From an uncultured Eubacteriales bacterium (GTDB lineage: Bacteria > Bacillota > Clostridia > Christensenellales > Aristaeellaceae): a stretch of DNA of 33,263 nucleotides. Numbering within the stretch: position 1 is the first letter of the stretch; every line of letters starts with the position of its first letter. This document shows, in pieces, positions 21,501-26,656 of this stretch. Under the pieces are notes generated by a model that was not told where the DNA came from, searched no databases, and saw nothing but the letters and a program-made list of their open reading frames with translations. A program made the translations under genes and the position numbers. The DNA lies in assembly GCA_902764875.1 (NCBI GenBank), contig CACWXP010000028.1:1-33263 (forward strand), read 5' to 3'.

Positions 21501-21538
21501 GAACCGCGGTTCCCTCATGAACCGCGGTTCTCTTTTTT
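21501..21538 (+). terminator. recO terminator
   Basis: GAACCGCGGTT (21501-21511) and AACCGCGGTTC (21520-21530) form a perfect 11-bp stem with an 8-base loop, followed by a T-run (21533-21538). The T-run touches the stop codon of the convergent flavin reductase gene. Confidence 0.9.
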
Positions 21539-22149: not shown

Positions 22150-24051
22150 TTATCCTTTCACAACCATGTTCAGAATCTTCCGGCTCCGCTCCAGGAAAGC
22201 GGTGATCTCCTCCGCCTCCAGCGGCTGCGCGGCCATCCGGGCCAGGTCGTACACCTGGCTGCAGAGCATCTTCGTCGTCTCGTCCTCCGGGTCCCGCTCC
22301 GCCAGGGCCTGCACCGTCTCGTTCCTGCGGTTCAGCACCAGCGTAAAGCTGTCCGGAATCGGGAAGTTCTGGCCGTAAATCCGGCTCATCTCCTTGTACC
22401 GGCGCATCTGTTCGTCTTCCGTCACCATGGCGGTCATGCCCGCGTCGCCCAGGGATTCAAGCTTCACTTCCAGCTTGTCGTTCCCCAGCGCGCTGCGGAA
22501 CAGGGTCTGCAGCTTCTCCGCGTCCAGGTCCTTTCCCTCGTCGGATTCCTCCTTCAGGCCGTCGATGTCCGCGTCCACCCGGGCGAAGGTCACCCGGTCG
22601 TCCTCGCTGCCCTGGTATTCCATGAAGGACATAAAGTTCCCGTCAATCAGGGTGTTCATCACGGCTACTTCGATGCCCCGGTCTGTGTAAAGCTTCACGG
22701 AAGCTGCCTGGCGCTTCTCGTCGTTGGTGTAGTAGACCTTCTTGTCGGTCTTGTCGAAGTTCGCCGCCTTGTATTCCGCAATCGTGGAGTACTTCCCGTC
22801 GGTCTTCTTCAGCAGGATCGCGCCCTTCACCTGGTCGTAGAACTTGCTGTCCTTAATCGCGCCGTACTTCACGAAGGGCGCGATATCGTCCCAGTACCCT
22901 TCGTAGGTTTCCCGCTCGGTGTTCATCAGGCTGTTCAGCTTGTCCGCCACCTTTTTGGTGATGTGCGCACTGATCTTCTTGACGTACCCGTCGTTCTGAA
23001 GGAAGGAACGGCTCACGTTCAGCGGCAGGTCGGGGCAGTCGATCACGCCCTTCAGCAGCATCAGGAATTCCGGAATCACTTCCTTAATATTGTCCGCCAC
23101 GAACACCTGCCCCGCGAACAGCTTGATCTGCCCCTCGTGGGTGCCAAAATCGTTCTTCAGTTTCGGGAAATACAGGATGCCCTTCAGGTTGAAGGGATAG
23201 TCTACGTTCAGGTGAATCCAGAACAGCGGATCCTCAAAGTCCATGAAGACCTTATGGTAGAAGCTCTTGTATTCCTCCTCCGTGCAGTCCGCCGGCTTCT
23301 TCAGCCACAGCGGCGCGGTGTCGTTGATCTGCTGGGGTTTCGGAACCTCCATCACCTTTTCGGTCTTCGGCGTGCCGTCTTCATTCTTTTCGTCTCCGAC
23401 GGGAACTTCCTTCTCAACGGGCTTGGCGTTCAGGTCCTCCAGCATCACCGGATACGCCATGTATCCGCAGTACCGGTTCAGCACTTCCCGAACCTTCCAG
23501 GTCTCAAGGAATTCCTTTTCCTCTTCGCTCACGTGCAGGATGATGTCTGTCCCGTGGGTCTTCCGGCTGCCTTCGGAAATCTCGAAGCCCATGCCGTCTT
23601 CCGAAACCCAGTGAACCGGCTCCGCCTCGCCTTCGCTGCTCAGCGTTTCAATCTCAACCTTGTCGCTCACCATGAAAACGGAATAGAAGCCCAGCCCGAA
23701 GTGGCCGATAATGTCTCCCTTTTCTTCCGGCTTGTCCTCAAACTGCTTCATGAACTCGCTCGCGCCGGAGAAAGCCACCTGGTTGATGTATTTGCGTACT
23801 TCCTCGTCCGTCATGCCGATGCCGGTGTCGGAGATCCGGATAATCTTCTGCTCCTTGTCCACCGCCACGGTCACCGCCATAGGCTCCTCGCTGTCCGGAT
23901 GAAGCATCCGGAACTTCGTAATCGCGTCGCAGGCGTTGCTCACCGCCTCGCGGAGAAAAATATCCTTGTCGGAATACAGCCAGCGCTTGATCACCGGCAT
24001 GATATTCTGCGCATCAATGGATACGGAACCTTTTTCATTCTGAATAGCCAT
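22150..24051 (-). CDS. htpG: molecular chaperone HtpG (bacterial Hsp90)
   Basis: This 633-residue ATP-dependent chaperone acts on unfolded or late-folding proteins in the cytoplasm. The N-terminal ATPase shows LREAVSNACDAITKF, DTGIGMT and GHFGLGFYSVF, the GHKL ATP-binding motifs. The middle domain and the C-terminal dimerisation domain follow in normal order and length. Upstream on the minus strand are a CIRCE operator and a TTGCAA-17-TAAAAT promoter, so HrcA repression is predicted. In Bacillus subtilis htpG is not in the HrcA regulon, so this wiring differs from that model. The flavin reductase gene follows. Confidence 0.98.
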   Translation of the reverse strand: MAIQNEKGSVSIDAQNIMPVIKRWLYSDKDIFLREAVSNACDAITKFRMLHPDSEEPMAVTVAVDKEQKIIRISDTGIGMTDEEVRKYINQVAFSGASEFMKQFEDKPEEKGDIIGHFGLGFYSVFMVSDKVEIETLSSEGEAEPVHWVSEDGMGFEISEGSRKTHGTDIILHVSEEEKEFLETWKVREVLNRYCGYMAYPVMLEDLNAKPVEKEVPVGDEKNEDGTPKTEKVMEVPKPQQINDTAPLWLKKPADCTEEEYKSFYHKVFMDFEDPLFWIHLNVDYPFNLKGILYFPKLKNDFGTHEGQIKLFAGQVFVADNIKEVIPEFLMLLKGVIDCPDLPLNVSRSFLQNDGYVKKISAHITKKVADKLNSLMNTERETYEGYWDDIAPFVKYGAIKDSKFYDQVKGAILLKKTDGKYSTIAEYKAANFDKTDKKVYYTNDEKRQAASVKLYTDRGIEVAVMNTLIDGNFMSFMEYQGSEDDRVTFARVDADIDGLKEESDEGKDLDAEKLQTLFRSALGNDKLEVKLESLGDAGMTAMVTEDEQMRRYKEMSRIYGQNFPIPDSFTLVLNRRNETVQALAERDPEDETTKMLCSQVYDLARMAAQPLEAEEITAFLERSRKILNMVVKG

Positions 24052-24098
24052 CGCTCAAAACTTCCTTTCCTGCGGCTGCTGTTGCCTGCCGCCCATCT

Positions 24099-24127
24099 AT
24101 TTTATCACCCCTCCAAAGCGATTGCAA
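24099..24127 (-). promoter_or_regulatory. sigma-A promoter of htpG
   Basis: On the minus strand, TTGCAA (24122-24127), 17 bases, then TAAAAT (24099-24104). It starts 7 bases downstream of the CIRCE element. Confidence 0.75.
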
Positions 24128-24129
24128 GG

Positions 24130-24161
24130 AAAAATTAGCACTCTCCGTCGGAGAGTGCTAA
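24130..24161 (-). terminator. recA terminator that coincides with CIRCE
   Basis: On the minus strand the stem runs from 24161 to 24150 and 24146 to 24135: 12 perfect pairs with a 3-base loop. It is followed directly by five T (complement of 24130-24134). It begins 16 bases after the recA stop codon. This is a good intrinsic terminator by shape. Confidence 0.75.
24135..24161. promoter_or_regulatory. CIRCE operator (HrcA binding site)
   Basis: TTAGCACTC (24135-24143), exactly 9 bases, then GAGTGCTAA (24153-24161). Both arms match the CIRCE consensus without a mismatch. HrcA binds this element to repress chaperone genes until heat stress. The operator precedes htpG. Confidence 0.95.
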
Positions 24162-24177
24162 CAATCGTTCCGTTCAT

Positions 24178-25317
24178 TTATTCGTTGTCCAGGTCTTCCT
24201 CCAGCAGGGCCATGTCGTCCTCTTCCTCCGCAGCCGGTTCCGCAGCGGCGCCGGCTTTTTCCGCCGTAACGGGCTTCTGCTCAAACATCTGTTCCCGAAC
24301 CTTGGCTTCGATCTCCGCCGCCAGTTCCGGATGCTCTTTCAGGTACTTCCGGGCATTGTCCCGTCCCTGAGCCAGTCGCTGGTCGTTGTAGGAGAAGAAG
24401 GCGCCGCTCTTGTGGACGATATCCATTTCAACTGCCATATCCAGCAGCGTTCCTTCGGTGCTGATGCCTTCGCCGTAGATGATGTCGAACTCCGCAATCC
24501 GGAAAGGCGGAGCAACCTTGTTCTTGACGACCTTCACCTTGGTCCGGTTGCCGATCACCTCGCTGCCGTTCTTGAGCGGTTCACCCTTGCGCACGTCCAG
24601 CCGCACCGAGGAGTAGAACTTCAGCGCCCGGCCGCCGGGAGTAGTTTCCGGGCTGCCGTACAGCACGCCAACCTTCTCGCGCAGCTGGTTGATGAAGATC
24701 GCCACGCATCCGGTCTTGTTGATGATGCCGGTCAGCTTGCGCAGCGCCTGGCTCATGAGGCGGGCCTGCAGGCCAACAAAGGAATCGCCCATTTCGCCGT
24801 CAATCTCGGCTTTCGGCACCAGCGCCGCCACCGAGTCGATCACCACCACGTCCAGCGCGCCGCTGCGCACCAGCGCCTCGGTAATCTCCAGCGCCTGCTC
24901 GCCGGTATCCGGCTGGGAAACGTAGAGCTCGTCAATGTTAACGCCCAGCTTCTTGGCGTATGCGGGATCCAGCGCGTGTTCCGCGTCGACGAACGCGGCG
25001 ATGCCGCCGGCTTTCTGCGCCTCGGCAACAATATGCAGCGCAACGGTGGTTTTGCCGGAAGATTCCGGCCCGAAAATTTCAACAATCCGCCCCCGGGGAA
25101 TACCGCCCACGCCCAGTGCTTCGTCCAGCGTCAGGCACCCGGTGTGAATCACGGGGATATCCTTCGCGATGGCTTCCGACCCCATCTTGATCACGGAGCC
25201 TTTGCCGAACTGCTTATCCAGGTCCGCCAGCGCGTGCTCAAGCGCCTTCAGCTTTTCTTCCTGAATGTTCGTAATCTGAACGGTTTTCTCGGGTTTCGAA
25301 GATTTTCTTGCTGCCAT
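24178..25317 (-). CDS. recA: recombinase RecA
   Basis: RecA forms filaments on single-stranded DNA for homologous recombination and the SOS response. The 379-residue protein has Walker A GPESSGKT at 83-90, the [15 protein letters not shown] strand with Walker B, the loop-2 region [21 protein letters not shown], and an acidic C-terminus. Residues 1-20 are a Lys-rich extension. AAGGATG lies before the ATG. A sigma-A promoter is upstream; I found no GAAC...GTTC-type LexA box there, so SOS control is not visible by eye. Its terminator overlaps the htpG operator. Confidence 0.98.
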
Positions 25318-25379
25318 TTTGTTTCATCCTTTCACTCTTTACGTCTCATCACCCGAAGGTGATCGCTCCCGGTGAAAGT

Positions 25380-25408
25380 ATTGTATCTCCCTCCGCACCA
25401 AAAAACAA
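25380..25408 (-). promoter_or_regulatory. sigma-A promoter of recA
   Basis: On the minus strand, TTGTTT (25403-25408), 17 bases, then TACAAT (25380-25385), about 60 bases before the recA start. Confidence 0.65.
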
Positions 25409-25441
25409 GGGGAACAAAAATATTTTTTTTACCCAATTTTT

Positions 25442-26656
25442 TTATCGTTTATACGCCCTGCGGATCCCTGCCGCGTCTGTTGTCATAATCGCCCGGATCT
25501 TCCCCGGCTCCGCCCGCAGCGACATCGTCAGCTCCGGATAGCGGAAGCTCCGGCGGAAACTCTTCTCTGCCCGGAACACGCCGTTTTCAATCCTTCCGAA
25601 GTCCCAGGATTCCAGGTTGTCCGCCGGCGTGGCCTTCGCCGGGAACCCGGCGTTCTCCTCCGCCAGCCCTTTCATCAGGAAGCGGCCGCTTTCCGGATCC
25701 TCCTCCGCCAGCAGCTCCGCCTTCTCTTTTCCGCAGGGACAGATCACCGTCAGGTTCTCCGGCTTCAGCCGGGCCAGCGTAATCGCGATTGCTTCCGGAT
25801 TCACGTCCATTCCCGCAAACCGGCACCCGATCCTCTGCGCCGCTTCCAGCGCCGTCCCGCTGCCGCAGCAAAGGTCGACCACCAGATCCCCGGGCCGGGT
25901 CACCGGCAGCAGCAGCCGCTCCAGCAGTTTCAGCGGTTTCTGCGTCGCGTATCCGGTCCGTTCCGGGTCCCGCTGCTGAAGAAATCCGATGTCTGTCCAA
26001 ACGTCTCCCGGATAAACCGGTTCGTCGTCGTAGTAGCGGTATTCTTTTCCGTTCGACGTGATGTAGGAATACGCCCGGCCCGTTTCATCCATGCCCCGGG
26101 CCATGTGGTTCCGCCGAACTTCGCCCCGGGGAAGCGGAACCTTCGTCAGATCAAAAAGATACTTCTGGCTTTTCGCGTAAAGCAGAATCACGTCGTGCTT
26201 CCGTGAAAAGTGGCGTTTCGACCGTCCGCCGCTTTCATATCCCCAGATGATTTCGTTCAGAAACCGGTCCTTCCCGAAAACCTTGTCGCACATGATCCGC
26301 GCCTGCGCGCTCATGCGCCAGTCCAGGTGAAGATAAAACACGCCGGTTTCGCTCAGCAGATTCTTCGCCGCCCCCACCAGCCTCCGCAGCAGCCGCAGGT
26401 ATTCCTTCTCCTCGGTGAACTGGTCGTTGTAGGCCGGATATCGGCACGAAGGGGTGCCCGTGCGCCAGCCCTTCTCGCCGTAGGGCCGGCGCCGCATGTA
26501 TTTTTCTCCCGTCATGAACGGCGGGTCCAGATAAACGCACTGTGCCTTTCCGTACAGTGCGCGGATATCCTTCGGCATCGCCATCGCGCTGCCGCATCGC
26601 AGCAGGTTCTCTCCCTCTCCGAAGATTTCCTTCTGAATCTGAATCTGTTCAAACAT
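25442..26656 (-). CDS. orphan DNA methyltransferase (beta-class N4/N6)
   Basis: This 404-residue protein has the motifs of amino-group DNA methyltransferases: motif IV DPPF at residues 44-47, and later motif I as VVDLCCGSGTALEA followed by an acidic GMDVNPEA block, the S-adenosylmethionine site. The order IV before I and a mid-protein target-recognition region mark the beta class, as in type III Mod subunits. The ATQKPLKLLERLL segment is motif X-like. No restriction endonuclease gene adjoins it, so it is an orphan in this window. Its start overlaps the YkgJ-like gene by 8 bases. The methylated sequence and base cannot be read from the protein. Confidence 0.92.
   Translation of the reverse strand: MFEQIQIQKEIFGEGENLLRCGSAMAMPKDIRALYGKAQCVYLDPPFMTGEKYMRRRPYGEKGWRTGTPSCRYPAYNDQFTEEKEYLRLLRRLVGAAKNLLSETGVFYLHLDWRMSAQARIMCDKVFGKDRFLNEIIWGYESGGRSKRHFSRKHDVILLYAKSQKYLFDLTKVPLPRGEVRRNHMARGMDETGRAYSYITSNGKEYRYYDDEPVYPGDVWTDIGFLQQRDPERTGYATQKPLKLLERLLLPVTRPGDLVVDLCCGSGTALEAAQRIGCRFAGMDVNPEAIAITLARLKPENLTVICPCGKEKAELLAEEDPESGRFLMKGLAEENAGFPAKATPADNLESWDFGRIENGVFRAEKSFRRSFRYPELTMSLRAEPGKIRAIMTTDAAGIRRAYKR

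Follow-up and report, generated by a model that had tools for sequence, protein, structure and literature searches.

The window analyzed here comprises 33,263 nucleotides from one contig of a draft genome (3.27 Mb, 67 contigs), and the titled relatives nearest to it are chiefly Clostridia MAGs from rumen and gut. The minus strand carries recA and then htpG, the gene for an Hsp90-family chaperone, and the two are separated by a short region containing the inverted repeat known as CIRCE, the operator of the heat-shock repressor HrcA (Table 1). A motif search of the window returned this single perfect copy, TTAGCACTC-N9-GAGTGCTAA, and none of 100 shuffled sequences contained any match when up to three mismatches were allowed. 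The start of htpG is located 83 nt downstream of the operator, and the genome also encodes HrcA (L001:1554-2585; TIGR00331, 308 bits against a cut-off of 197). The spacer of the operator is a palindrome about one base, and its outer three bases on each side pair with one another. A G-U pair at the base of the stem brings the hairpin from 12 to 13 pairs, with a loop of 3. On the minus strand, the tail following the hairpin reads TTTTTCC, and the predicted -35 and -10 hexamers of htpG come next. Folding of this strand yielded -27.1 kcal/mol over 76 nt (z = -4.79), a value that none of 200 shuffles equaled or bettered. The initial annotation had described a perfect 12-bp stem, a 3-base loop, five T and a position 16 bases past the recA stop codon; all of these features and their coordinates are found in the sequence.

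Table 1. Features of the recA-htpG intergenic region and its flanking genes, in window coordinates.
Feature	Position	Strand	Evidence or remark
htpG, 633 aa, Hsp90-family chaperone	22150..24051	-	NCBIfam NF003555, 615 bits against a cut-off of 371
Predicted htpG promoter, TTGCAA-17-TAAAAT with TG extension	24099..24127	-	Hexamers directly downstream of CIRCE
Five T, predicted U-tract of recA	24130..24134	-	Within the 7 nt that link CIRCE to the htpG -35
CIRCE, TTAGCACTC-N9-GAGTGCTAA, 0 mismatches	24135..24161	.	Motif search
CIRCE spacer TCC-GTC-GGA, loop at 24147-24149	24144..24152	.	Turns the 9-bp arms into a 12-bp stem
Gap between recA stop codon and CIRCE, 16 nt	24162..24177	-	Sequence
recA stop codon	24180-24178	-	Sequence
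recA, 379 aa	24178..25317	-	NCBIfam TIGR02012, 559 bits against a cut-off of 325; putative terminated transcript

By its sequence, the element qualifies both as a CIRCE and as an intrinsic terminator. As in known CIRCE/HrcA systems, a chaperone gene is preceded by a perfect operator and hrcA is present in the genome, and as in intrinsic terminators a stable stem of 12-13 bp with a 3-nt loop is directly followed by T residues and placed 16 nt past a co-directional stop codon; another terminator-like hairpin was not found in the gap between recA and the operator. The hairpin has an energy of -19.8 kcal/mol, while an average of -14 is quoted for terminators of B. subtilis (PMC1852404), although the underlying energy models may differ. 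On the other hand, the window CIRCE differs from the groES operators of Streptococcus pneumoniae and a cyanobacterium discussed below in that it lies upstream of the predicted -35 region, combines a pairing spacer with a T-tract and seems to act on behalf of the gene before it, and it differs from ordinary terminators in that a repressor site fixes 18 of its 24 stem bases, so that only the inner pairs and the linker are free to evolve. As the foot of the stem is rich in A-U and the T-run comprises five residues only, termination efficiency may be partial. A lone terminator-like match means little, since a simple terminator scan over 8 kb of the window gave nine sites with 8.4 expected; it is the comparative pattern described below that goes beyond chance. 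A search of positions 23800-25600 against Rfam gave no matches to curated families at gathering score.

Two other structures in the window are recorded here for completeness. In the recA leader (25348-25364, minus strand), a small hairpin, GATCACC-TTCG-GGTGAT, is visible by eye just 3' of a TACAAT-like -10. A LexA-type palindrome near recA was considered and discarded: the exact pattern GAACNNNNGTTC, which we take to be of the LexA type, is absent there, and both matches in the window fall at 21501-21530. On the plus strand, this segment consists of two GAACCGCGGTTC copies six bases apart and a subsequent TCTTTTTTAT, located between two minus-strand open frames; the array is terminator-like, and each GAACCGCGGTTC copy resembles the LexA-type palindrome.

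The comparison was based on a genus set of 45 genomes, 41 of them with an htpG match (genus level being defined as an htpG identity of 82% or more), on 80 titled loci and on 120 further htpG upstream regions; the last came from the 143 genomes of the family in which htpG was matched, after 7 genus members already included and 16 others (incomplete matches, contig edges, unlisted matches) had been set aside. Among the 242 loci handled, one lacked the htpG N-terminus and 16 lacked a CIRCE with up to three mismatches. Removal of identical CIRCE regions reduced the 225 loci with CIRCE to 168 unique ones, 159 of which entered the htpG tree. Spacers were scored as pairing when the two outer pairs were Watson-Crick, and loci were assigned to the close class when a co-directional stop codon lay at most 40 nt upstream of the operator, a limit fixed once the loci of the genus and the 80 titled ones had been inspected. 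Upstream genes were called with our own codon-score script rather than with a standard gene finder, and separate terminators with our own hairpin script.

The spacer proved to depend on what lies upstream. Two outer pairs are present in 32 of the 41 close-class loci and in 12 of the 127 others (Fisher p 1e-16), the latter being made up of 7/45 with a more distant co-directional gene, 4/67 with a gene on the opposite strand and 1/15 in which no upstream gene was called. For all three outer pairs the corresponding figures are 15/41, 3/45, 1/67 and 0/15; the third pair is less constant and is Watson-Crick in 17 of the 41 close-class loci. The pairing loci are concentrated at particular distances: 0/3 at gaps below 8 nt, 3/5 at 8-14 nt, 21/21 at 15-24 nt (the window included), 8/12 at 25-39 nt, 2/11 at 40-59 nt, 2/10 at 60-99 nt, 3/10 at 100-199 nt and 0/14 beyond. 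The difference recurs in the loci fetched later (9/14 close against 6/76 other, p 1e-5; first loci 23/27 against 6/51), a hold-out that was not fully blind as bare spacers of some of these genomes had been listed earlier, with their contexts unseen. Relatives contain compensatory pair types (TCG/CGA, GCC/GGC, TCC/GGA, GCA/AGC), and in all 32 close-class loci with complementary spacers at least three of the first four linker bases are T. The T-tract may have come first, because many loci in which no gene ends close by have a T-rich linker as well. The median hairpin energy (-17.8 versus -12.5 to -13.2 kcal/mol) was likewise counted in favor of a combined operator and terminator. Wobble pairs on the side of the transcribed strand amounted to 5 against 2 (p 0.45).

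Nine of the 41 close-class loci fall below two pairs (L146, L147, L196, L252, L221, L066, L120, L206 and L232); L066 misses the mark by a wobble second pair, and the other eight miss it more plainly. The linker is T-rich in four of the nine and A-rich in five, and the A-rich linkers (L146, L147, L196, L252, L221) would make poor U-tracts. Conversely, two loci (L179 and L112) have kept a pairing spacer despite an opposite-strand gene between recA and CIRCE; these intervening genes we infer to be recent insertions.

Base composition does not explain the pattern, since re-pairing of the spacer ends within the close class gave on average 9.9 and at most 18 pairing loci out of 41 in 2000 permutations, compared with the 32 observed. 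Common descent was taken into account through 19 independent pairs on the htpG tree, of which 10.6 ran in the expected direction and 0.3 in the opposite one (median p 0.002); when loci containing recA were omitted, 13 pairs gave 9.6 against 0.1 (median p 0.004). When a spacer had to form all three outer pairs in order to count, the same test was not significant (3.9 versus 0.8, median p 0.375), and our claim therefore rests on two extra pairs.

The check proposed in the initial annotation, namely whether spacer self-complementarity persists in relatives that also have recA beside htpG, was carried out, and it does in the great majority of cases: two outer pairs are present in 20 of the 23 close loci at genus level. 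Here, recA is the immediate neighbor in 22 of the 23 (19 of these pair, the window included), and an ABC gene is inserted in the remaining one (L180), where an ABC ATPase gene now follows recA and the spacer pairs. The comparison across all 168 loci thus lends support to the earlier proposal that one element may act as operator and terminator. Its second part, a specific link between DNA repair and heat shock, was not supported, because the spacer is reshaped in the same way behind other genes and, among the loci examined, recA is found upstream only in the genus-level group. Two outer pairs occur in 12 of the 18 close-gene loci without recA upstream, and pairing spacers were found behind genes for a Na/Pi cotransporter, a phosphoglycerate mutase, an ABC-F-like protein, a protein mannosyltransferase, an ATPase, an amidohydrolase, a glutamine synthetase and an ABC permease (10 of the 13 non-recA neighbors of pairing loci were scanned, one of them without a family). 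A specific partnership of recA and htpG as a general driver is therefore rejected: other upstream genes behave alike among the loci examined.

Other groups were inspected as well. A second family of the order is represented by 11 genomes, 10 of which have an htpG match. All four loci with a close gene (gaps of 20, 20, 25 and 4 nt) have pairing spacers (AGC/GCT, AGG/CCT and twice TC/GA), and neither of the two with a CIRCE lacking such a gene does; in three genomes, a CIRCE was not found despite a visible htpG start, and a further case ended at a contig edge. The four loci have what looks like the same neighbor, which is recognized solely from a long open frame and a common C-terminus, and pairing in this family may therefore have a single origin. 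Loci with both a CIRCE and a close gene were few in two additional families of the order and in one from outside the class. Scans for T-tailed CIRCEs gave hits in 13 of 398 genomes across the phylum and in 20 of 396 across the order, the window's own genome included; the contexts of the loci retrieved are mixed and support single cases only, because the longest-open-frame caller misplaces some known genes. In other families, CIRCEs with a pairing spacer and a T-tract precede genes whose products, read by eye, resemble small heat-shock proteins (L334 in G676 and L324 in G812), and these are possible further cases of an operator that doubles as a terminator. Two htpG CIRCEs with pairing spacers (L204 and L323; G069) are situated between AAAA and TTTT and could stop transcription from both sides. 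Furthermore, among the matches listed, a degenerate CIRCE, TTAGCACTGTCAAGAGGTGAGTGCTAA or nearly so, with an almost constant spacer was seen in several genomes of the genus (G132, G066, G091, G156, G163 and G164).

The predicted position of the promoter indicates to which transcript the hairpin should belong. A pattern TTGNNN-N16-19-TANNNT lies downstream of CIRCE in 165 of the 168 htpG loci and its TTG begins exactly 7 nt past the operator in 149, it being this fixed offset, rather than a shuffle control, on which the argument from the count relies. With the predicted promoter 3' of CIRCE, the hairpin should be part of the upstream transcript and not of the htpG leader. The genome has two further CIRCEs, ahead of hrcA and groES. 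Both lie downstream of promoter-like hexamers, as judged by eye, their spacers form one outer pair only, and the side facing the gene is devoid of a T-tract. At these sites, a hairpin with a T-tract would halt the operon's own transcription. The htpG CIRCE is unlike them because it is located upstream of its predicted promoter.

Separate terminators and pairing spacers nearly exclude each other. In 73 loci, a co-directional gene ends no more than 260 nt away; among these, the spacer is complementary in 1 of 20 with a separate terminator-like hairpin (L148 being the sole case) and in 38 of 53 without one. Short gaps leave no space for a separate terminator, and the analysis was therefore narrowed to gaps of 41-260 nt, where the proportions are 1/20 and 6/12 (p 0.006); the other six of these twelve have neither a separate terminator that we found nor a pairing spacer. 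Two genus members with recA upstream, L083 and L086, combine a non-pairing spacer with a terminator-like hairpin of its own in the gap. Nothing is added to this contrast by L150 and L068, in which recA is further upstream and the script did not find a separate hairpin. This substitution of one structure for the other bears on the idea that the hairpin merely stabilizes the 3' end of a longer upstream mRNA as an exonuclease barrier, or attenuates read-through in a recA-htpG operon. Hairpins are capable of both, and in sequence a 3' end made by termination looks the same as a trimmed one; yet the T-tract directly adjoins the hairpin and the favored gap of 15-24 nt is what one would expect of a terminator placed shortly after a stop codon, which together with the substitution makes us consider such a role highly improbable.

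No greater probability is assigned to the view that the self-complementary spacer arose by chance or is an HrcA-driven variant, a symmetric spacer binding the repressor better and recA transcription being unaffected. CIRCE is after all a DNA palindrome, its spacers vary, and three outer pairs are expected in 1/64 of random spacers. Against this view, pairing depends on the upstream context (32/41 against 12/127), and CIRCEs of the genus that do not belong to htpG pair in only 5 of 49 cases among the matches listed. These controls are 49 distinct spacers, defined as non-htpG and mostly not by the gene they serve, from which sites with arm mismatches were left out with one exception. Furthermore, in the absence of a close upstream gene the htpG spacer frequently has T at both ends, i.e., a T-T mismatch (33/67 opposite-strand and 21/45 distant co-directional loci). 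This arrangement is rare among the typed non-htpG spacers, again among the matches listed, and might mark avoided pairing or a contact on the promoter side.

A 5' leader element of the htpG mRNA acting on stability or translation, as suggested by the CIRCE leader stem of Bacillus subtilis and by the hrcA and groES CIRCEs of the same genome, is the least probable of the alternatives and is disfavored by the predicted promoter position in nearly all loci and by the fact that such a role would be independent of the distance or direction of the upstream gene.

Other CIRCEs have been described as follows. In Mycoplasma gallisepticum, four are reported to be located, like the one in the window, upstream of chaperone gene promoters (PMC4245973), whereas in Streptococcus pneumoniae the groES CIRCE is positioned after the start site (PMC6212727), and in a cyanobacterium the groES start lies within the CIRCE loop (PMC2662882). 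A description of CIRCE as a terminator was not found in the passages, titles and abstract openings consulted, mostly from open-access journals. The closest parallel found is provided by Neisseria and Pasteurellaceae, in which DNA uptake signal sequences arranged as inverted repeats are reported also to form terminator hairpins, and the same source notes that a terminator-like appearance might also arise from further palindromic sites, among them some factor-binding sites (PMC1852404). In both situations, a DNA motif recognized by a protein would double as a terminator hairpin, as we propose for the window CIRCE. The difference is that, according to that account, complementary copies of a genome-wide uptake word pair with each other, whereas here a single palindromic operator gains pairs mainly where a neighbor needs a terminator.

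Taken together, the window CIRCE very probably serves HrcA as its operator at htpG, and its RNA copy very probably provides the hairpin for intrinsic termination of recA. At the level of sequence, its anatomy, the covariation, the dependence on the upstream gene and the near-exclusion with separate terminators are established, and from these we infer that transcripts do end here, that HrcA binds, that the promoter is used and what the selective reason would be. The following course of events may be envisaged. In the family of the window, the htpG CIRCE is usually located 7 nt upstream of the -35 region, which would place it outside the htpG mRNA and render it usable by transcription arriving from upstream. 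Where a co-directional stop codon has come to lie about 10-40 nt from the operator and the space for a separate terminator is gone, the spacer would usually evolve self-complementarity, such that the 9-bp arms grow into a hairpin of 11 to 13 bp with a T-rich linker immediately after it. RNA polymerase leaving the upstream gene would transcribe the operator, arms and spacer would fold, and the transcript would be released in the T-rich linker before the htpG promoter is reached. The upstream mRNA would thereby gain its 3' end, and htpG would be shielded from read-through that bypasses control by HrcA.

It is conceivable, though in our estimation unlikely, that upstream transcription and HrcA occupancy are in direct conflict and that gene order wires the neighbors into the heat-shock response, since RNA polymerase coming from upstream must cross the entire operator in order to reach its stop signal. 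If this were true, induction of the neighbor, here recA, would knock HrcA off and open htpG briefly, whereas bound HrcA would act as a roadblock, with the consequence that the neighbor's mRNA would end short of the protective hairpin. Heat shock would then alter the 3' end and the lifetime of the mRNA of whichever gene is located upstream, and operator-terminators would let gene order alone wire unrelated genes into the heat-shock response.

Nature appears to have repeated the same experiment with different upstream genes: the operator tends to gain a job at the RNA level when gene order demands it, and this second job is mostly missing where a separate terminator exists. The family thus offers numerous matched pairs of natural loci in which one could ask if repressor and terminator, when made of the same bases, interfere with each other. 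It is also a warning that operator spacer sequences should not be read as free, as operators can carry constraints that stem from the neighboring gene and not from the regulator.
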